Notes under the pieces: generated by a model
Seen by the model: the letters and a program-made list of their open reading frames with translations, nothing else
The model's database searches: none
What the model was told of the DNA's origin: nothing
Shown here: positions 3,390 to 20,522 of the stretch, piece after piece
Layout: each line of letters begins with the position of its first letter
Numbering within the stretch: position 1 is the stretch's first letter
DNA from: Gemmatimonadota bacterium
GTDB lineage: Bacteria > Gemmatimonadota > Gemmatimonadetes > Longimicrobiales > Gaopeijiaceae
Assembly: GCA_022560615.1 (NCBI GenBank)
Contig: JADFSR010000006.1
Location: 1-64,000 of the forward strand
DNA length: 64,000 nt
Direction: 5' to 3'
Made by a program: the position numbers and the translations under genes

Positions 3390-3964
3390 CGAGCCGAGCT
3401 CCTCTCACGAATCCACCGCTTGAACCGGAATGCGTTCTCGGGCAGTGCGAAGTCCATCCCGTAGTTGTCCGGCCCAACGGCCTTCACCTTGGCGACGATC
3501 ACGCCCAGGTCGTCGCGCTCGAGCGCCTCGACGACAGCCTCGCCGAAGGCCATCGGGGAGTTGACGGACGCGACGTGCTCGATGCCCGCCCCGCGTGCGA
3601 TTGCCGCGAGATCTGTGATGCCCGCGGTCGTGTGCGACTCGAAGCCGCCCGTAGAGAGCAGGCTGCCGTTGTCGAAAATGATGTGCAGGAGGTTCTTAGG
3701 CCGATATCGGGCCAGCGTCGCGAGTCCACCCAGATTCATCAGCACCGAGCCGTCACCGTCGAGCACTACGACCTGCTCCTCGGGTCGGTGCAGCGCGAGG
3801 CCCAAAGCGATCGAGGAGGCGAGGCCCATCGCGTGCTGCAGGTAGAAGAAGTTCTCCCGGTGACCGAGGTCGTAGAGCTCCTGCGCGCTCGCGCCCATGA
3901 TGGTCACGACCAGCTTGTCCTGGAGCTCGGGGTAGAGCATCGCAATGCACTGGGCTCGTTCCAT
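3386..3964 (-). CDS. ThDP-dependent decarboxylase, beta subunit (sulfopyruvate decarboxylase-like)
   Basis: C-terminal, cofactor-binding half of a split thiamine-diphosphate decarboxylase, about 192 residues. The ThDP/Mg motif is GDGSVLMNLGG followed at the usual distance by IIFDNGS. It resembles ComE of sulfopyruvate decarboxylase and the C-terminal part of phosphonopyruvate decarboxylase. Its start shares one base with the alpha-subunit stop (TGATG), so the two are co-translated. No sulfolactate or coenzyme M genes lie nearby, so the substrate, an unspecified 2-oxo acid, cannot be fixed from sequence. Confidence 0.8.
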   Translation of the reverse strand: MERAQCIAMLYPELQDKLVVTIMGASAQELYDLGHRENFFYLQHAMGLASSIALGLALHRPEEQVVVLDGDGSVLMNLGGLATLARYRPKNLLHIIFDNGSLLSTGGFESHTTAGITDLAAIARGAGIEHVASVNSPMAFGEAVVEALERDDLGVIVAKVKAVGPDNYGMDFALPENAFRFKRWIRERSSAR

Positions 3965-4473
3965 CACTCCTCCATCAGATCCCGCGTGAGCAGGAGCGCC
4001 ACAGGAGAAAGTGAGCTCTGGGAGAAGGTCCACGCCTCCTGGATCTGCTTGCCGACTTTCTCCGGGTCGCGGGCGTACTCGAACGGGATGCTCAACGCCC
4101 GCAGAACGCCTTCCGTGACGATGCCGCCCCGAGTGTGCCACGGGTACGGCTCCCCCCAGTGCCCACGCAGCGCGATGAGCATGCACAGCGGGATCCCGTA
4201 GAGCTGCGCGAGGGACACGATGCCGTTGATCGCCCCTAACAGGCCGTGATTCTGCATGAGCAGGATGTGCGGCTCTCCCGCGAAGTACGCGCCAGCGGCG
4301 ATGCCCACCGCCTCCTCTTCCTTCGCGACCTGGATGAGCTGGATGTCCGGGTCGTCCTCAGCGCGCTGGAGCAGCAGGCCAAGCCACGTCTCCGGCAGCG
4401 CGGAGATGCTCGTGATGCCGGCGGCCTTGATGCCCTCGAAGACGGCCTTCGAGTTGTCGTAGGAGACGGTCAT
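3964..4473 (-). CDS. ThDP-dependent decarboxylase, alpha subunit (sulfopyruvate decarboxylase-like)
   Basis: N-terminal, pyrimidine-binding half of the split enzyme, 169 residues. The segment VAKEEEAVGIAAGAYFAG contains the conserved glutamate that activates ThDP, and LLMQNHGLLGAING is typical of ComD-like subunits. The ATG at 4473 has a good GGGGAAGG ribosome-binding site. The reading frame of an upstream kinase fragment happens to end in an ATGA overlap with this start. Together with the beta subunit it should form an alpha/beta decarboxylase of a small 2-oxo acid. Confidence 0.8.
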   Translation of the reverse strand: MTVSYDNSKAVFEGIKAAGITSISALPETWLGLLLQRAEDDPDIQLIQVAKEEEAVGIAAGAYFAGEPHILLMQNHGLLGAINGIVSLAQLYGIPLCMLIALRGHWGEPYPWHTRGGIVTEGVLRALSIPFEYARDPEKVGKQIQEAWTFSQSSLSPVALLLTRDLMEE

Positions 4474-11689: not shown

Positions 11690-12273
11690 CCGAGACTCCT
11701 TCGGGCGGAGGCTCACGGCTCCTTCGAGACGATGTCGTCTCCGGAGGCGTGCTCCTGCTGGTCGCGGCCGCCTACGGAGCGGGCGCAATGCGGATCCCGA
11801 GCCAGGCCGGTGAGCCCGGCCCGGGCTTCATACCGCTGGCCCTGTCCGTGATGTTGGCGGCCTTGTCGGTGGCGATTGTCGTGGGGGGGCTCCAGCGGAG
11901 CGCCGACACCGGCGGGGCCCATGGGGCCGATGGGGCCGATGGAGCCGATAGAGCCGAAGGGGCCGATAGAGCCGAAGGGGCCGAGGACGAGCCGGCCGAC
12001 GCGGCGCGAAGAGTCCCGCAATCCGGCGGAGGGCGCAGCCGGGGGGTAACCATGCCCTCGCTCGCGGCGCTCGCCACGATCGCCTATGCCGCTCTGTTCC
12101 AGCCACTCGGCTTCGTTCTGAGCACTCTCGCCTACAGCGGCTACCTGACCAGCCTTTTCAGCGAAGATCGCAAGCTACGTGCGGCCGTCCCGGCCTTCGT
12201 GACCTTGGCGCTCTTCATCTTCTTCCGTCTCGCTCTGGGTGTGCGGCTACCGACGGGGCTGCTGGGGCCGTGA
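11677..12273 (+). CDS. tctB: Tripartite tricarboxylate transporter small membrane subunit
   Basis: TctB, about 198 residues with four hydrophobic segments (GVLLLVAAAYGAGAM, FIPLALSVMLAALSVAIVV and two after residue 125). GTG 11677 overlaps the lyase gene. Between the second and third membrane segments lies a low-complexity loop of repeated GAD/RAE triplets, unusual for TctB. The C-terminus overlaps the TctA start by 4 nt. It partners TctA in secondary transport of carboxylates. Confidence 0.88.
   Translation: MDRLTETPSGGGSRLLRDDVVSGGVLLLVAAAYGAGAMRIPSQAGEPGPGFIPLALSVMLAALSVAIVVGGLQRSADTGGAHGADGADGADRAEGADRAEGAEDEPADAARRVPQSGGGRSRGVTMPSLAALATIAYAALFQPLGFVLSTLAYSGYLTSLFSEDRKLRAAVPAFVTLALFIFFRLALGVRLPTGLLGP
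11914..11984 (+). repeat. 9-nt minisatellite within tctB
   Basis: Repeated GGGGCCGAT and GAGCCGATA-like 9-mers encode a GAD/RAE tripeptide array in the TctB loop. The unit keeps the frame, so copy-number change would alter only loop length. A comparable 9-nt array is found in tctA (about 12908-12956). Confidence 0.8.
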
Positions 12274-13713
12274 CGCCCGATCTGCTGCTCGCGCCAGGGC
12301 TACTCCCGTTCCTGGTGGGTGGCGTCCTGTTGGGCATCATCGTGGGTGCGGTGCCTGGACTCACCGCTACGCTCGCGATCTCGCTGCTGCTTCCACTCAC
12401 GTTCCAGCTCGCGACGCTCCCGGCGATCGTCATGATGACCGGGATCTTCACAGGCGGGATCTACGGTGGATCCATTGCGGCGATCACCCTGCGGATTCCT
12501 GGGGCGCCGGCGAGCGCGATGACCATGCTCGACGGCCACGCGATGGCACAGCAGGGAAGGGCAGGATCGGCGATCGCCTTGGCGACGTTCTCTTCGTTCG
12601 TGGGAGGCATCTTCGGGGGTGTCGTGCTCGTGCTCTTCGCGCCACAGCTCGCGCGCATTGCTCTCACGTTCCAGTCCCCGGAGATGTTCGCTCTGGTCTT
12701 GCTGGCGCTGGTCGCCGTGGCGACCGTTTCCCCTGAGTCGTTGCTGAAGAGCATGACCGCGACGGTCATCGGTCTGATGCTCGCGACCGTAGGCATCGAC
12801 CGGCTCGTGCCGGTGCCGCGCTACACGTTCGGATCGGTGGACCTCCTTGTCGGGGTCCCCCTCATCCCGGTCGTCATCGGTCTCTTTGCCGTGACCGAGC
12901 TGCTACATCAATCCGAGCAATCCGACCAATCCGACCAGTCCAGCCGGTCCGGCGAGTCGGCACGCCGAGCCGAAGCCGCGCCCGAGATCGGATTCCCTCG
13001 CCTGGCAGCGCTGTGGAGCGACGTGCGCTCGGTGGGAATCGGAGTGTGGGTGAAGAGCCCGGTCATCGGGACGCTCGTGGGCGCGCTGCCGGGAGCTGGG
13101 GCCGCGATGGCCGCCTTCCTCTCCTACTCGGAGGCGAAGCGCTCTTCAGCCGAGCCGGAGCGGTTCGGTTCCGGTGTCCCGGAGGGAATCGTCGCGCCAG
13201 AGGCGGCCAACAACGCGATGACGGGCGGGGCGTTCATCCCCATGCTCGCTCTCGGCATCCCGGGTGACGCTGTCACGGCCGTCATCCTCGGCGGTCTGGT
13301 CGTGCACGGCATCACGCCGGGCCCTCAGCTCTTCGGGGGGTCATCCGAGCTGCTGGGTCCACTGTTCGGGGCGTACTTCTGGAGCTACGTGCTCATCCTG
13401 GTCTTCGGCCTCGCGTTGATCCCGGTCTTCGTGCGCATCACACGGATCCCGAGAGGGGTCCTTTTTCCACTCATCGGTTCGTTGGCGCTCACCGCGGCGT
13501 TCACCTCCGAGGGGACCACCTTCGCGATGTACTTGACGGCCGGGGTGGGTGTGCTCGGCTTCGTGCTCAGGCGGTACGGCTATCCGCTGATCCCGGTTCT
13601 GCTCGCAGGGGGACCCCACGGTCTTCCTGCGTTCCCCCGTCGCGGCTGTATTGCTGCTGGGGGCGGCGGCGTTCCCGCTTTGGGTGCTACGGCGACGGAG
13701 GAGTCCAGGTTGA
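12270..13713 (+). pseudogene. tctA: Tripartite tricarboxylate transporter large subunit, frameshifted at C-terminus
   Basis: TctA is the large permease with about 12 membrane segments. It begins at ATG-equivalent 12270 and shows the family blocks GLTATLAISLLLPLTF, GIYGGSIAAITLRIPG, PEAANNAMTGGAFIPML and LGIPGDAVTAVILGG. Near 13605-13612 the expected stretch after YPLIPVLLA is missing, and the conserved DPTVFLRSPVAAVLLLG is read in another frame that ends with TGA at 13711-13713. That stop overlaps the next gene's TTG by 4 nt, confirming the original frame. In the zero frame the protein reads on into the downstream lipoprotein. About 20 residues of the family sequence appear deleted, so this is more than a one-base slip. 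Confidence 0.8.
12908..12956 (+). repeat. 9-nt minisatellite within tctA
   Basis: Tandem AATCCGACC-like units encode a SEQ/SDQ-rich cytoplasmic loop between membrane segments. The same unit length occurs in tctB of the same operon, but the sequence is different. Confidence 0.75.
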
Positions 13714-14207
13714 ATTCTCTACCCTACGGGGCCTCACTGTCTGTGGCGCTGCTGTTGGCGGGCTGCGCGACCGATTCGGCCGCTCCTTCCAATCCAGGGG
13801 AGGGTCAGGAACCGGAGGGGCCGCTGGCAATCGCTCGCGGATGGGTCGGGTTGTACGACGGCTTCGGCATAATCACGGTGGGCGCTGACCGTCAGGAAGC
13901 GACCGACCTCATCCTTCGGATCGCGCTGGACACGGACTCGGTCGCGAGTGCGTCGTGCCCGGCCTGCGTGACCGTCATCCTGGACCCGTGGTTCGCGAAG
14001 GGGAACTTGGAGATTGCGTCGGGATCGGAGGCTGCGCTGGCCTACGAGGAAGAGGGGGTCGTCCGGTCCCTGACCATCAACAGGTTCTCCGCTGGCGGGC
14101 AGATCGCCAACGTGCTCACCGTGAAGCTTCGTCACGAGACGGCTCCGCCCCCGGGTGTTCCCGTCCAGATCCTGGTGGATGGTGATCTCGAATTCCGGAA
14201 GCGATAG
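13710..14207 (+). CDS. Putative lipoprotein of unknown function
   Basis: Lipoprotein of 165 residues. It starts at TTG 13710, with GGAGG upstream, in a TTGA overlap with the original tctA stop. The signal peptide ends in the lipobox LLLAGC, followed by a Pro/Gly/Glu-rich linker. The mature part is predicted beta-rich (WVGLYDGFGIITVGADRQEA), with a CPAC motif near residue 85. I do not recognise the family. A frameshift in tctA now places it in one continuous frame with the permease, but its own start signals are intact. Confidence 0.7.
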   Translation: MNSLPYGASLSVALLLAGCATDSAAPSNPGEGQEPEGPLAIARGWVGLYDGFGIITVGADRQEATDLILRIALDTDSVASASCPACVTVILDPWFAKGNLEIASGSEAALAYEEEGVVRSLTINRFSAGGQIANVLTVKLRHETAPPPGVPVQILVDGDLEFRKR

Positions 14208-14223
14208 CACCGCCTGCTCGGCC

Positions 14224-16998
14224 CTACTCGTATCGCAATGCGCTCGATGGGCCCACGCGCGCCGCCCGCCCCGCCGGGATCCAGCAGGCCAGCAACGCCA
14301 CGGCCGCGAAGAGCGCCGGAACGGATATGAACGTCTGTAGATCCTGGGGTTCCACTCCGTAGAGCATGCCGCTCATCAGATCCGTGACGAACCAGGCGAC
14401 GCCCGTACCAACGGCGACCCCGGCGAGCGCCATGATCATGCCCTGACGCACGAGCAATGCAATGACCTGTCCCGATTCGGCCCCGAGCGCCATGCGCACG
14501 CCGATCTCCTGTGTGCGTTGGCTCACCGAGTACGCGAGCACGCCGTAGATGCCGATGGTCGCAAGGATGATCGCAAGCGAGCCGAAGGCGCTGAGCAGCA
14601 TCATGGCGAAGCGAGGTTGGGCGACCGCCGAGGACAGCACCTCATCGAATGTCCGGATGTTGGAGACCGGAAGAGTCGGATCGGCCGACCGAATCTCACG
14701 GCGCACGGGACCGATGAGCGCCTTGGGGTCTCCGCGCGTGGCGATCGTGAGCGTCATGCCCCGGATCGTTCCGACGAAGGAGACCTGGGCCTGGGCCTGT
14801 GGCCGATAGAACCGCTCGTTCACCTCTCCGGTGATGCCGTTGTGGGCCACGTCGCCGACGACGCCGACAACGATCGCGGTGTCGCCACCCATCGCGCGGA
14901 CTTCCGCGCCGAGCGGACTTCCATTGGGCCAGTACCGATTCGCCAGCGTCTGGTTGATGACCACGACCGCCTGACCATCCGAGTTGTCACCGATCTCGAG
15001 CGTGCGTCCCTCGATGAGCGGGATACCCATCGTCTCAAGGTACCCAGGTGTGGCGAACTGCCAGTCCGCCTGCGTCCACTCGTTGGGCTGGGGGACGTAG
15101 CCTACCGGTGAGAAACCTCCGTCCCCCATGGTGGTCGCCAACGGCAGAATCCTGACGGCGCCCGCGTTCTCAACGCCTGGTAGCTCGCGGATCCGGCGCA
15201 GGAGCTCGTCGTAAAAGCCGACTACGGCAGGCGCGTCCGGGTAGGCGCCCGCCGGCGCTGAGATGCGTAGCGTGAGCACGTTCTCGGCACGGAAGCCAGG
15301 GTCGACGCTGAGCAACGAGACGAAGGTCTTCATCATGAGGCCGGATCCCGTCAGTAGGATCACCGCCATCGCCATCTGGGCCGCAACGAGTAGCCCCTGC
15401 ATACGGTTTGAGCTCACGCCCCTGCGCCCGCCGCGTCCACCCTCGTGCAGTGCCGCGCCGATGCCACTGCGACTCACGCGTACGGCGGGCACCACGCCGA
15501 AGAGCAGCGCCGTGAACGCCGAGAGGCCGATCGTGAAGAGCACGACGGTCGCGTCGAGGGACACCGCGTCCGAGCGGGGCACGGCGGTCGGGTCGATCGC
15601 GAGTAGCGCGTCTACCCCGAGCACCGCGAATACGAGTCCAAGGGCGCCGCCGGCAGCGGCGAGCACGGCGCTCTCGGTGAGCAGTTGACGGAGAATCCTC
15701 GCCCGTCCCGCGCCGAGCGCGGTGCGCACGGCGACCTCGCGCGTCCGAGCCTCGCTGCGCGACAGCAGCAAGTTGGCGACGTTGGCGCACGCGATGAGCA
15801 GCAGGAAAGCGACTGCGCCCAACAGCACGAGGATCGTATTGCCGGCGGCGCCGACGATGTCCTCTTTCACACCGTAGACGCGCGGCTGGAAGTTCTTTTC
15901 GACGCTGAAGACGCCCTCGGCCCTGAGTTGGTCGACGAGACCGACCAGGTCAGCCCGCGCTGTCTCTACCGTCTGCCCTTCCCTCAGCCTCGCGACTACG
16001 AAGCTGCCGTGGTTACCGCCCTCCTGGAGCGCGAGCGGTGTCTCCACGTCCACGTACATCGGGAAGAAGACCTCTGAGACACTCGCCGAGCCGTAGTCGA
16101 TCGGCAGCATGAATCCTTCCGGTAGGACGCCGACGATAGGGAACATCATCCCGTCCATCTCGACGCTCCGACCGACGATCGTCGGGTCGCCACCGAATCT
16201 GCGTTGCCACAGATCGTGGCCGATGAGGACGTTGGGAATCGAATCCTGGCCGGCGAGCGGGCGATGCACACGGCCCGTGACCGGCTCCACGCCCAGCACC
16301 GAGAACGTGTTCCACGTCACCGTTGCGGACCCAACCCGCTCGGGATTCTCGGCCGATGTGAAGCTCACCGAGCCGGTCTGGTACAGCGCCACGTCTTCGA
16401 GCGTCCGGTTCTGCTGATACCAGTACGTATACTCCTGCGTGGAGACCCAGGTTTTGTCCGGGAAATTGTCCCACGACGACCAAATCGTGACGACCTCGTC
16501 GGCGTCCGCGTACGGCAGCGGGCTGAACAGCACCCCGTTCGCCACGCTGAAGATCGCGGCGGTGGCGCCGATGCCGAGCGCGAGCGTAAGCACCGCCGCA
16601 AACGAAAAGCCCGGGTTTCTGCGCAGCGAACGCGTGGCGAACTTGAGATCCTGCAGTATCGAAGTCATCCCTTCCCCTCCCGTCAATTCGGTCAGCCACC
16701 GCGGCAGCGTATGGCGCATCATTCGACGCAGCGTCGGTCGCATCGCGTCTTGCTCCGTGCGGAGAAGCACGACGAGGATACGACGCTCTGCGGGATCTTC
16801 TACGCATAGCAGGATCTGATCGCCCGCTGGAAGCGCGACTGCGCCGGTTTCGTCGAGCTCGCCTTGCAGACCCGGTGGCAGCCCGTTTGCGGCGAGGTGG
16901 TCGATGCGCTCCGCGACCCTCGTTCGGTCTTCGCGGGGGAGAGCTCGCAGGGCGGCGACCACCGCACTCGTGAGCTCGACGTGCCAGCGCTCCGCCAT
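14224..16998 (-). CDS. FtsX/MacB-type permease fused to an N-terminal RelE/ParE-like domain
   Basis: 924 residues. From about residue 111 it is an ADOP-type ABC permease: LKFATRSLRRNPGFSFAAVL, the first membrane helix ALGIGATAAIFSVANGVLF, a large periplasmic MacB-like domain, then two FtsX units with the signatures REVAVRTALGAGRARILRQL and EIGVRMALGAESGQV. Residues 1-86 look like a RelE/ParE toxin fold (VELTSAVVAALRALPREDR, then LPAGDQILLCVEDPAERR). A strong GGGAGGGG ribosome-binding site precedes the ATG at 16668 (residue 111), so the permease may also be made alone. No cognate ATPase is adjacent. A Phd-like antitoxin remnant lies directly upstream. Confidence 0.85.
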   Translation of the reverse strand: MAERWHVELTSAVVAALRALPREDRTRVAERIDHLAANGLPPGLQGELDETGAVALPAGDQILLCVEDPAERRILVVLLRTEQDAMRPTLRRMMRHTLPRWLTELTGGEGMTSILQDLKFATRSLRRNPGFSFAAVLTLALGIGATAAIFSVANGVLFSPLPYADADEVVTIWSSWDNFPDKTWVSTQEYTYWYQQNRTLEDVALYQTGSVSFTSAENPERVGSATVTWNTFSVLGVEPVTGRVHRPLAGQDSIPNVLIGHDLWQRRFGGDPTIVGRSVEMDGMMFPIVGVLPEGFMLPIDYGSASVSEVFFPMYVDVETPLALQEGGNHGSFVVARLREGQTVETARADLVGLVDQLRAEGVFSVEKNFQPRVYGVKEDIVGAAGNTILVLLGAVAFLLLIACANVANLLLSRSEARTREVAVRTALGAGRARILRQLLTESAVLAAAGGALGLVFAVLGVDALLAIDPTAVPRSDAVSLDATVVLFTIGLSAFTALLFGVVPAVRVSRSGIGAALHEGGRGGRRGVSSNRMQGLLVAAQMAMAVILLTGSGLMMKTFVSLLSVDPGFRAENVLTLRISAPAGAYPDAPAVVGFYDELLRRIRELPGVENAGAVRILPLATTMGDGGFSPVGYVPQPNEWTQADWQFATPGYLETMGIPLIEGRTLEIGDNSDGQAVVVINQTLANRYWPNGSPLGAEVRAMGGDTAIVVGVVGDVAHNGITGEVNERFYRPQAQAQVSFVGTIRGMTLTIATRGDPKALIGPVRREIRSADPTLPVSNIRTFDEVLSSAVAQPRFAMMLLSAFGSLAIILATIGIYGVLAYSVSQRTQEIGVRMALGAESGQVIALLVRQGMIMALAGVAVGTGVAWFVTDLMSGMLYGVEPQDLQTFISVPALFAAVALLACWIPAGRAARVGPSSALRYE

Positions 16999-17030
16999 AT
17001 GGCTAGATCCCTATCCGTTTCATCAGTCTC

Positions 17031-17240
17031 TTAGAGGTCCAGGTCTCTGCGGACCTCGTCCCACGAGCGCGTGCCGGACTCGTTCATGGCGGCGAGCGCG
17101 GCCTCGAGGTCCCTCTTTGACAGCAGCTCGCGTAGCCGATCTAGGAGCGTGACCTCCTCGAGCGGAACGATGGCGACCAGCCCCTTCCCGTGGCGTGTCA
17201 CGACGAACCGTTCCTTGCCGTATGCCGCGCGGTTGAGGAG
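17031..17240 (-). pseudogene. Truncated Phd/YefM-type antitoxin
   Basis: Sixty-nine codons ending at the TAA at 17031-17033 match the middle and end of Phd/YefM antitoxins: LLNRAAYGKERFVVTRHGKG, LVAIVPLEEVTLLDRL and a helical toxin-binding tail. The first ~15 residues, including the start methionine, are missing; the frame instead runs back into the 3' end of the neighbouring lipoprotein gene, next to a duplicated GAGGAGCT. It sits 32 nt upstream of the RelE-like domain fused to the permease, in antitoxin-toxin order, so it is most likely the remains of a toxin-antitoxin operon. Confidence 0.65.
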
Positions 17241-17248
17241 CTGAGGAG

Positions 17249-18160
17249 CTAGAGCCGCTCGAGGTCGCAGCGCATGACCGTCATCGAAGCCGGCCCACCC
17301 ACGGGCCCACCTTCCGACGTAAGCACGACGAGTCCGTCGAGCCCGATACCGACCGCCTCGCCCTGGCCCTCCTGCAGGGTGCGGAGGTTGACGAGTGCTC
17401 CGTCGATCGCGGCGAGCGTGTCGCCGTCCATGCGGTAGAACTGGAGTGACTCATAGGTCCGCAGCGCGAGCACCGCTCCCCGCGGGTCGACCGCACCGCC
17501 GGTCACCTGGCGCGGGAGGATCTGGGCACGGCTGGTCAGCCGCTGGACCTCCTCGAGCGTGACTGTATCGGGGCGCAGCGGTGGTGGATAGCGGTACACA
17601 GTGACTGGGTGATTGCGGCCCTTCGTGACCACATACACGCGCTCGCCCGGCAAGACCAACAACGCTTCGATATCTCGGGGGCCGTCGGGCAGGCGGAGGG
17701 GGAATGACTCGGTCCGTAGCCGACCGTCAGCGTCGACTTCGGCCCCCGAACCTGTCGGGTCCGGTTCCGGGATGCGGCGGAGCAGAATTCCCCCGGCGGG
17801 CCGCTGCTCGTCGTTGTCGCCCAGGTCGGCCAGATAAAGGCACGAGCCATCTTCCGGGCATGTGGAAACCGCGAGGTCCTCCCAATCGCGTAGGTCATCG
17901 GCGAGCGGGAAGCGAGCCGTGATCGATCCCTCGCGGTCCACCGCGTACAGCACCGAGCCGTCATCGTTGTGCGTCCAGAAAGTACCGGGGTGACGGAGGC
18001 TGACGGCGACACCGCTCGACTCGCGGAGCTCGTCCGGAAACACGATGCCGGACGACACGGGGCGACACCCCGGACCTGCCGTCGCAACGGGCCCACATCC
18101 CATCGTCCACAGCGCACCGGCGAGCAGGATCGCGTGGTGCTTTGTCGGCGGCCTGCTCAG
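17249..18160 (-). CDS. Putative lipoprotein, beta-propeller/esterase-like
   Basis: Secreted protein of about 303 residues with repeated beta-propeller-like strands (GTFWTHNDDGSVLYAVDREG, LADLGDNDEQR, DIEALLVLPGERVYVVTKG). An SdiA-regulated/YjiK-like or phytase-like fold is my best guess, without recognisable catalytic residues. An internal ATG lies at 18103, but only the longer frame starting at CTG 18160 gives a proper lipoprotein signal (AILLAGALWTMGC). That CTG overlaps the upstream stop as CTGA, matching the coupling used elsewhere here. Confidence 0.6.
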   Translation of the reverse strand: MSRPPTKHHAILLAGALWTMGCGPVATAGPGCRPVSSGIVFPDELRESSGVAVSLRHPGTFWTHNDDGSVLYAVDREGSITARFPLADDLRDWEDLAVSTCPEDGSCLYLADLGDNDEQRPAGGILLRRIPEPDPTGSGAEVDADGRLRTESFPLRLPDGPRDIEALLVLPGERVYVVTKGRNHPVTVYRYPPPLRPDTVTLEEVQRLTSRAQILPRQVTGGAVDPRGAVLALRTYESLQFYRMDGDTLAAIDGALVNLRTLQEGQGEAVGIGLDGLVVLTSEGGPVGGPASMTVMRCDLERL

Positions 18161-18903
18161 CTAGCGCCTCCCTGAGTGGCCTCGGTGTGCACGGCGGTCA
18201 GGATCTCGCGGAAGGCTTCGGTAGGCAGCGCTCCCTGGAGTGGCGGATAGCCGAAGATGAAGAATGTGGGCGTTCCACGAACGCCGGCCTGCTTAGCGAA
18301 GCTCGTCGCCGCCGCGATGCGATCCATTTGGCGGTCGTCGGCCAGGCAAGCGTCGAGCTCACCGAGATCGGCGCCGGCGTCGCCGGCCATGGCCCGCACC
18401 ACGGCCTCGGGTTCACCGCTGCGTTTCCAGGCCGCCTGATCCGTCCAGAGGCGCTTATTGAGCTGGTCGAACACTTCGGGGCTTTGAAGGAGTGCGCACT
18501 CGGCGGCCTCGGTTGCCGCCAGAGAGTTCTCGAACATGCCTGTGATAAAGGGCATGAATTTCCACTCTACCATGCCTGACTCGATGAACTCCGAGAGCAG
18601 CGTGGGGAAAGTCTCGATATGGAACTGGCGGCAGTAGCCGCAGCCGTAGTCGGACAGCTCCAGCACGCGGACGGGCGACTCCGGGTCTCCACGGTTGTAG
18701 CCGAGTGTCGCGACGTCGATGGTCTGGCTCGAGCCCGAAGGAAGGTCGGCGTTTCCCATCGGACTCGAGGAGCCCCTCGGCGCACCGCTGAGAAGACCCG
18801 CCGCCGTCGCGCTCGTGTCGGGGGCGTCCGAGCCCTCGGAAGCGCACGCGCCGACCGTGAGCGCGGCCGCGACGGCAACCGTCCGAACGAACAACAGCCT
18901 CAT
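18157..18903 (-). CDS. DsbA-like thiol-disulfide oxidoreductase, lipoprotein
   Basis: 248-residue thioredoxin-fold protein. The N-terminus is a lipoprotein signal ending LTVGAC, followed by a Ser/Gly linker. The active site is CGYC in LSDYGCGYCRQFH, and the cis-proline loop is VRGTPTFFIFG. It resembles the DsbA/DSBA oxidoreductase group (Thioredoxin_4), exchanging disulfides on the periplasmic side. The ATG at 18903 overlaps the ccdA stop by 4 nt, so CcdA probably supplies it with electrons from the cytoplasm. Confidence 0.9.
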   Translation of the reverse strand: MRLLFVRTVAVAAALTVGACASEGSDAPDTSATAAGLLSGAPRGSSSPMGNADLPSGSSQTIDVATLGYNRGDPESPVRVLELSDYGCGYCRQFHIETFPTLLSEFIESGMVEWKFMPFITGMFENSLAATEAAECALLQSPEVFDQLNKRLWTDQAAWKRSGEPEAVVRAMAGDAGADLGELDACLADDRQMDRIAAATSFAKQAGVRGTPTFFIFGYPPLQGALPTEAFREILTAVHTEATQGGAS

Positions 18904-19643
18904 GGCATCTCCAGATTGATGAGCTGGCCCAACCCGGCCAGAAACGCCGTCATGGTCGCGAACCGACCTGTAACCATCAGAAGACCGATCGCGACGAGCA
19001 GAGTTCCGGCCACGCGCCCGAGCGGCACCATCCACCGTTTCAGACGCTCCGTCCCTGCCAGGAACCAGTTGAACGCCACCGACGCGACCACGAAAGGGAT
19101 CCCGAGCCCCAGAGCATAGGTCGCGAGCAGCACCGACCCGTGTGCCATCGTGGCTTCGAGACTCGCGTAGAGCAGAATCGAAGCGAGAATCGGCCCGATG
19201 CAGGGCGTCCACCCGGCGCCGAACGCGACTCCCACCACGAGTGAGCCCAAGGGCCCGGCCGGTCGCGACGAGAGATGTACACGCCGTTCGCGGGCGAGTG
19301 CCGGAATACGCAGTGCTCCCACCATATAGAGCCCGAAGACGATCATCACGATCCCTCCGGCGCGGTTGAGCCACGGAAGCGTGCGGGTCACCGCCTGACC
19401 GAACGACGTGGCCACCCACCCCATGGTCATGAAGACCGCCGAGAAGCCCAGGACGAAGAGCACCGAATTGATCAGCGCCGCCCTGCGCGCCTGCGCGGCC
19501 GAGCTCTCGCGAAGGTCCTCGAGGGTCAGCCCGGAGATGAACGCCAGGTAGCTCGGCACTACCGGCAAGATGCACGGAGACAAGAACGAAGCGAGGCCCG
19601 CGACGAATGCGAGCGGCAGCGATATCTGGACCTCGAGGGACAT
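18900..19643 (-). CDS. ccdA: Cytochrome c biogenesis / thiol-reductant transporter CcdA
   Basis: Polytopic membrane protein of 247 residues with about six helices. The two redox cysteines are seen in SFLSPCILPVVPSYLAF (helix 1) and GAGWTPCIGPILAS (helix 4), each in the typical Pro-flanked setting. CcdA moves electrons from cytoplasmic thioredoxin to periplasmic partners, here most likely the co-transcribed DsbA-like lipoprotein. The start is ATG 19643. Confidence 0.93.
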   Translation of the reverse strand: MSLEVQISLPLAFVAGLASFLSPCILPVVPSYLAFISGLTLEDLRESSAAQARRAALINSVLFVLGFSAVFMTMGWVATSFGQAVTRTLPWLNRAGGIVMIVFGLYMVGALRIPALARERRVHLSSRPAGPLGSLVVGVAFGAGWTPCIGPILASILLYASLEATMAHGSVLLATYALGLGIPFVVASVAFNWFLAGTERLKRWMVPLGRVAGTLLVAIGLLMVTGRFATMTAFLAGLGQLINLEMP

Positions 19644-19667
19644 GTCGGTGAGCGGACGGACCGGCCG

Positions 19668-20522
19668 TCAGAGGCTGAAGTCCGTGAGCAACCGCTTCTC
19701 CGTTTCGCCCACCGTGGCCTGGATCTCCAAGTACTCCTCCAGCCCGCTACCATTGAGCTTGTTGCGGAGAAGTTGGTCCAACTGGAAGAGGCCCGCCGAG
19801 TTCGAGAGCTCCACCGTCACGCGGATCGGCTTGTCGCCTCCGCGTTCGATCTTCACGCTCTCCACAGCGGCGGCCGACACCGAGTGGATCGAAAGAGAGC
19901 CGGACGCGAAGGGAATCCGCGAGCGCCCCTTTGCCATGTCGAGCGCGTCCGCGGTGCGAACTATGCCCGCTTCGAGCGTCAGCGGCGTGCCGCCCGACCG
20001 GTGAGAGATGATCGCGTGGAGGATCTCCGCTCGGACGATCGTCGCGTGGCGCACGTCGTAGATCTCCGGCAAGAGCCGCGCGAGCTTGTCCTGCGCGACG
20101 AAGAGGCTGAACGCTTCGTGGTCCGCGCGGTGGATCGACATGCCGACGTCGTGCAATAGCGCAGCGAGCGCAACGACGACTTCAGCGTCGGTCGCTTTCA
20201 TCTCGTAGTTGCGGACGATTCCCGGCTCGACACCCGCGTCCACGAGCAGGCGCAACATCCGCACCGCAATGTTCATGACGATCTTCACGTGCACCGGACC
20301 GTGGTCCGTCATGCCCAGCCTCTCGACCGCGTTCACGTTGGCCGCAATCCAGAGTCCATAGAGGTCGTCGTCCGCGTTCACGAGCTCCATCACCTTGCGG
20401 AGCTTGGCGTTTCGGCGGTTGGGCACCGCCATGACGATGCGCTGCTCGAAACGGCCGTCCACACTCCGGACCAGGTCGCCTGGGTCCGGAATGGCCTCGG
20501 TATCGAAGTATTCCTTGCTCAC
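19668..20522 (-). CDS. HD-domain phosphohydrolase
   Basis: 284 residues with an HD metal-binding core: the first histidine in TDHGPVHVKIV, LLHDVGM (HD pair) near residue 125, H in HAIISHRSGG and D in IVRTADALDMAKG. The C-terminal third (after about residue 210) contains mixed alpha/beta sequence of unknown role. HD proteins of this type hydrolyse nucleotides or phosphate esters; the substrate is unknown. Its start overlaps the truncated RDD-like gene by 4 nt. Confidence 0.85.
   Translation of the reverse strand: MSKEYFDTEAIPDPGDLVRSVDGRFEQRIVMAVPNRRNAKLRKVMELVNADDDLYGLWIAANVNAVERLGMTDHGPVHVKIVMNIAVRMLRLLVDAGVEPGIVRNYEMKATDAEVVVALAALLHDVGMSIHRADHEAFSLFVAQDKLARLLPEIYDVRHATIVRAEILHAIISHRSGGTPLTLEAGIVRTADALDMAKGRSRIPFASGSLSIHSVSAAAVESVKIERGGDKPIRVTVELSNSAGLFQLDQLLRNKLNGSGLEEYLEIQATVGETEKRLLTDFSL

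Follow-up and report, generated by a model that had tools for sequence, protein, structure and literature searches.

A RelE-fold domain joined in frame to an ADOP permease behind a Phd antitoxin gene: possible regulatory reuse of a toxin-antitoxin operon in Gemmatimonadota

A 64,000-nucleotide stretch of a Gemmatimonadota genome (GenBank assembly GCA_022560615.1, contig JADFSR010000006.1, positions 1 to 64,000, forward strand; here called the window) carries a gene in which a RelE/ParE-fold domain, a linker and a complete ADOP permease are encoded in a single open frame (14224–16998, minus strand, 924 codons without a stop), preceded by the remnant of a Phd/YefM antitoxin gene. The reading we favour, with a probability of roughly 0.55, is that a type II toxin-antitoxin operon has been turned into an autoregulated permease module in which the dead toxin domain acts as a Phd-binding co-regulator. 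The observations behind it are the gene order, the frame, the recurrence of the fusion, the operator motif, the loss of the active site, the two permease lineages and a pair of reciprocal deletions. The parts of the gene are:

14224–16998, minus strand: fusion gene, 924 amino acids, ATG at 16998, stop at 14224–14226; open frame; nine further genomes show the architecture, two of these only up to a contig end.
16747–16998, minus strand: RelE/ParE-fold domain, residues 1–84, active-site residues lost (hhalign, 2khe, AlphaFold2, Foldseek, residue table).
16669–16746, minus strand: linker, residues 85–110, a basic helix followed by a Gly-rich stretch, in frame (alignments; AlphaFold2 helices at 88–106, low confidence).
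16672–16681, minus strand: internal Shine-Dalgarno sequence GGGAGGGGAA ahead of M111, rank 1 of 73 in-frame start-like codons, kept in 6/6 members of permease clade A.
14227–16668, minus strand: ADOP-family duplicated permease (MacB_PCD/FtsX), residues 111–924 (TIGR03434; PF12704 and PF02687).

Residues 114–924 were matched by TIGR03434 over the full length of the model (positions 1–803 of 803) with 901.2 bits, above the curated cut-off of 622.3, which makes this part an ADOP permease; residues 1–110 searched alone against Pfam and NCBIfam gave chance-level matches only and no curated family. For the N-terminal part, a profile of ten fused domains was compared with seven free RelE toxins of related genomes (hhalign, profile-profile; probability 98.4%), and the same fused-domain profile matched the PDB RelE structure 2khe with an E-value of 4.8e-5, with 1wmi and 3g5o ranking below. 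An AlphaFold2 model of residues 1–110 (ten sequences; predicted local distance difference test score, pLDDT, 81.6) has a RelE-like topology, strand-helix-helix-helix-strand-strand-strand; the full-length fusion model was poor (pLDDT 45.9) and was not used. Foldseek searches with the domain model returned as best matches nearly exclusively RelE/YoeB/HigB/ParE toxins, the list including the RelE domain of the CRISPR effector Cami1 (PDB 8phb), and Pfam ParE_toxin matched 8 of 17 aligned domain members at a permissive threshold. The N-terminus thus combines the beta-alpha-alpha-beta-beta-beta fold and the profile similarity of the RelE/ParE toxin superfamily, and this assignment is well supported, its last 20–25 residues being uncertain. 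In MacB/FtsX proteins the domain after the first transmembrane segment is periplasmic, so that the RelE-like N-terminal domain is expected in the cytosol. Two further matches in the window genome were discarded, one (C8) as an unrelated frame of 234 amino acids, which we take to be a DtxR-type regulator, and the other (C10) as weak (E 0.17); a contig scan yielded one weak Microbacterium match only.

Roles in the RelE active site have been described for Arg54, Arg56, Arg61, Arg81 and the terminal Tyr (PMC4989188). Six positions were checked (two Arg after strand 2, Tyr-Arg, a further Arg and the terminal Tyr), all invariant or nearly so in free toxins; they read A, P, Q, I, E and R in the window domain, which keeps none of the six and lacks both the basic residues and the terminal Tyr of an active RelE mRNA interferase. 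The other fusions keep 0–3, and free toxins of the same family have all six in six of seven cases and five in the seventh. Columns were aligned with MAFFT, single columns near the C-terminus being less sure than the overall loss. Judged by its residues, the fused domain looks catalytically dead, no working RelE RNase, and the loss argues against membership in type II toxin-antitoxin systems, in which toxicity is neutralised by the antitoxin.

Ahead of the fusion, the following features were delimited:

17031–17240, minus strand: Phd/YefM antitoxin remnant, codons 15–84 of 84, N-terminal DNA-binding part incomplete (TIGR01552, PF02604; alignment with four intact homologues).
17034–17201, minus strand: possible C-terminal Phd fragment of 56 amino acids from a GTG at 17201 (open frame only, predicted).

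The remnant is matched by TIGR01552 and PF02604 from model position 14–16 on and its stop lies 32 nucleotides before the fusion ATG; intact homologues at two loci of related genomes (L120 and L029) are matched including the N-terminal DNA-binding part. An intact Phd of 83–84 residues stands directly upstream of the fusion in 8 of 10 loci (all except the window and G139), and the intact proteins first aligned are 68–74% identical to the Phd of G049. Phd promoters carry TTTTGTACAAAA, with its YefM-type core TGTACA, or a near form, about 47–133 nucleotides before the start (nine sites); the exact 12-mer was present in 6 of 14 genomes searched, in one copy each and always at the Phd promoter of the module, and looser forms were seen at G029, G013 and G150. 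Palindromes with a TGTACA core are bound by YefM and Axe (PMC7730913; also PMC4803016). At the window locus the TGTACA operator motif is absent, and neither the exact TTTTGTACAAAA nor a second close Phd was found in the window genome. In G139 the Phd gene is separated from the fusion: they lie on two contigs, both away from the contig edges, and an operator-like site accompanies each of them, an arrangement suggestive of action in trans. This G139 Phd (L122, G139:C328) lies a few kilobases from a CcdA-like gene, and the window has such a gene (18900–19643) near its locus as well, so the G139 position may be where the module originally stood. A second Phd of the same subfamily was observed in G019 on another contig (L127, G019:C85, oriented 3709–3960), with TGTACA at -146 and ADOP-like fragments nearby; no recognisable RelE-like domain was found near it. 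In genus g25, some free RelE-type toxins (L129, L130, L131) are preceded by a small non-Phd protein, possibly of the ribbon-helix-helix type.

The preliminary description of this DNA had read RelE/ParE-type residues at the N-terminus, one continuous domain-permease frame and antitoxin-toxin order with a truncated Phd 32 nucleotides upstream; profile-profile, PDB profile, AlphaFold2 and Foldseek results bear out the first, the 924 open codons the second, and the TIGR01552 match from model position 14 on the third. It had named permeases that carry the domain away from any antitoxin as telling against its view, and here the result was the opposite: of ten, eight have an intact adjoining Phd, one a remnant and one a Phd elsewhere.

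Recurrence was assessed in relatives, mostly draft assemblies. Among 121 genomes of family f1, ten including the window genome have the fusion: the domain precedes an ADOP in frame, once per genome, in the window genome, G029, G013, G019, G147, G139, G150 and G132, the fusion of G130 can be read until its contig stops, and the G049 contig breaks off within the domain. Outside the family, searches of 154 genomes from the order (E 1e-7) and of 395 sampled across the phylum (E 1e-9) found no fusion; the domain matches there were toxin-size frames of up to 106 amino acids. At nine loci, between 111 and 128 codons separate the first Trp of the domain from a permease motif, with the frame kept and free of stops in every case. 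Because of these nine loci, and because clade B (G150, G132, G130) has no strong internal start, the domain is most simply taken as translated within the fusion. A toxin stop lost in the window genome or a newly formed fusion, the two origins proposed in the preliminary description, both fail: the fusion is old, conserved over several genera and at least two ADOP lineages, and no fresh accident. What happened recently at the window locus is the truncation of Phd: 161 bp are missing by comparison with a same-genus genome in which Phd and operator are intact.

In a tree of 62 ADOP sequences, which does not include G130 because the contig ends within its frame, the fusions fall into two supported groups (Shimodaira-Hasegawa-like approximate likelihood-ratio test, SH-aLRT): clade A with the window, G029, G139, G147, G019 and G013 (SH-aLRT 99) and clade B with G132 and G150 (SH-aLRT 100). 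Forcing all fusions into one clade changed the log-likelihood by -112 and was rejected by the approximately unbiased test (p-AU 1.4e-5), for which 23 rows and a simpler model (LG+G4) were used, the tested group having been named from architecture before the tree. The cassette would accordingly have been joined to ADOPs twice, or the prefix swapped between ADOPs. The preliminary description had suggested a once separate permease gene with its own start, and this agrees with the start and ribosome-binding site at residue 111 kept in six genomes. In the window gene that ribosome-binding site is the strongest of the 73 candidates, and the one at the first start is weaker; in clade A a strong site with ATG or GTG at the permease start occurs in 6/6 members, with ranks 1, 3, 1, 2, 1 and 1 among 60–91 start-like codons. 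Clade B has no ATG at the permease start and only weaker sites, and since a strong internal start is lacking, its permease most likely comes from the fusion only; for clade A, long and short products both appear plausible from the sequence.

Comparison with the same-genus locus L120 (genome G001) by blastn gave the recent history. Positions 422–3778 of L120 correspond to window 20599–17243 and positions 3940–4238 to 17242–16946; the 161 bp between the aligned flanks occur only in G001 and contain the operator together with Phd codons 1–14. G001 in turn lacks 2.7 kb of the fusion (window 16945–14238), of which about 18 codons at the start and two or three at the end are left. From these reciprocal deletions it follows that the genus ancestor had the whole module and that the two species lost opposite halves.

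17242–17243: deletion junction; the missing 161 bp carried the operator, the promoter and Phd codons 1–14 (blastn against same-genus L120).
17249–18103, minus strand: upstream gene, 284 amino acids, weak phytase-like match (open frame, profile match); its stop codon has come to lie directly beside the Phd remnant.

The upstream gene may drive the fusion by read-through. On the other side, TctA (12270–14207) runs in frame into a lipoprotein-like C-terminus in the window; in L120 the C-terminus of TctA is longer and proper, and the lipoprotein has a frame to itself, so a deletion or frameshift in this window region is likely. Two permease queries run against G001, the only further genome of the genus covered, turned up no ADOP at the thresholds applied (1e-100 and 1e-60); the window genome gave 27 at ≤1e-100. 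No Rfam elements were found within window positions 12000–20000.

In an intact module, a Phd/YefM-type protein would be expressed from the promoter with TTTTGTACAAAA, and the RelE-fold-ADOP gene follows directly. Judged by motif and position, the TGTACA palindrome is most likely the site at which Phd represses its own operon. Binding to the C-terminal tail of Phd has most likely been retained by the toxin-derived domain; Phd, and with it the expression of the permease, would then respond to the level of the permease and perhaps to its conformational state, so that toxin-antitoxin autoregulation would be reused for transporter control. In the six genomes with a conserved internal ribosome-binding site, the bare permease is probably made as a second product. 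In the window genome the control half went with the 161-bp deletion; the fusion is probably no longer under Phd control and would be either read from the upstream gene or decaying. A more specific form, in which the dead RelE domain is a membrane-tethered anti-repressor and the permease, by its amount or transport state, captures Phd and sets its own transcription in cis or in trans (as in G139), is put forward tentatively.

Several points weigh against the regulatory module. The operator function is predicted from motif and position, the dead domain could serve another role, and Phd control of the ADOP could be coincidental operon linkage. The module is present in just 10 of 121 family genomes and has been partly deleted in both genomes of this genus, which marks it as dispensable. 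Clade-B domains match the clade-A profile no better than free toxins do, so that the main support for common descent of the two sets of fused domains comes from their Phd partners.

Production of the permease from the internal M111 start only, the toxin-like frame being a vestige of a former toxin gene left open by chance, would fit the internal Shine-Dalgarno sequence with ATG or GTG in every clade-A member (ranks 1–3) and the weaker first site in the window, but clade B has the same fusion without a strong internal start, spacing differences at the nine stop-free loci are only multiples of three, and the domain fold is kept; we regard this as rather unlikely. Far less probable is a working toxin-antitoxin pair with an active, membrane-tethered RelE toxin neutralised by Phd: antitoxin-toxin order, the conserved partner and the RelE fold speak for it, but none of the six active-site residues examined survives in the window, every fusion has lost most of them, and the window genome keeps the domain beside a truncated Phd with no second close Phd found.

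Both remaining alternatives concern the window locus itself. That it is a decaying relic, its promoter lost and the gene silent, has a real though minor chance, given the deletion of operator and Phd start, the loss of the fusion from the same-genus genome and the altered TctA; the 924-codon frame is nevertheless intact and its ADOP part scores 901 bits. The ratio of nonsynonymous to synonymous substitution rates (dN/dS) of the Phd remnant against G001 is 0.13, like that of neighbouring genes (0.09–0.20), and points the same way, though it is no proof that the remnant is still in use because both lineages contribute. An assembly artefact behind the 161-bp gap or the joined frame is improbable: the gap is seen in a single assembly, a 105-contig draft, with short repeats at the junction, but the fusion is repeated in other assemblies and only the Phd truncation depends on this one.

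The favoured module resembles Phd/YefM-RelE/YoeB type II operons in gene order, Phd family antitoxin, RelE fold and TGTACA-core promoter palindrome, but its toxin domain is fused, lacks active-site residues and forms the N-terminus of an 800-residue permease; where YefM-type operons have a long and a short palindrome 12 bp apart, most module loci show one clear TGTACA palindrome. Like ADOP permeases (TIGR03434) with prefix domains, e.g. NF038403, it couples a full-length ADOP to an additional cytosolic domain at the N-terminus, where such prefixes usually sit; unlike known prefixes, the RelE-fold prefix is paired with an antitoxin gene, and no NCBIfam prefix model matches it. With Cami1 (PDB 8phb) it shares a RelE fold borne on a larger protein, but here the RelE-like part looks inactive and sits on a permease. 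A literature search covering few subscription papers found no precedent for a RelE-permease fusion, which is weak evidence of novelty, and almost nothing on ADOP function or regulation. The fusions outline a concrete path from a toxin-antitoxin operon to an ordinary regulatory module, along which toxin activity would be lost, operator and antitoxin kept and the toxin fold reused. They suggest that what began as a self-poisoning module came to serve as a circuit controlling a transporter, and that ADOP permeases may receive a regulatory input of this kind.
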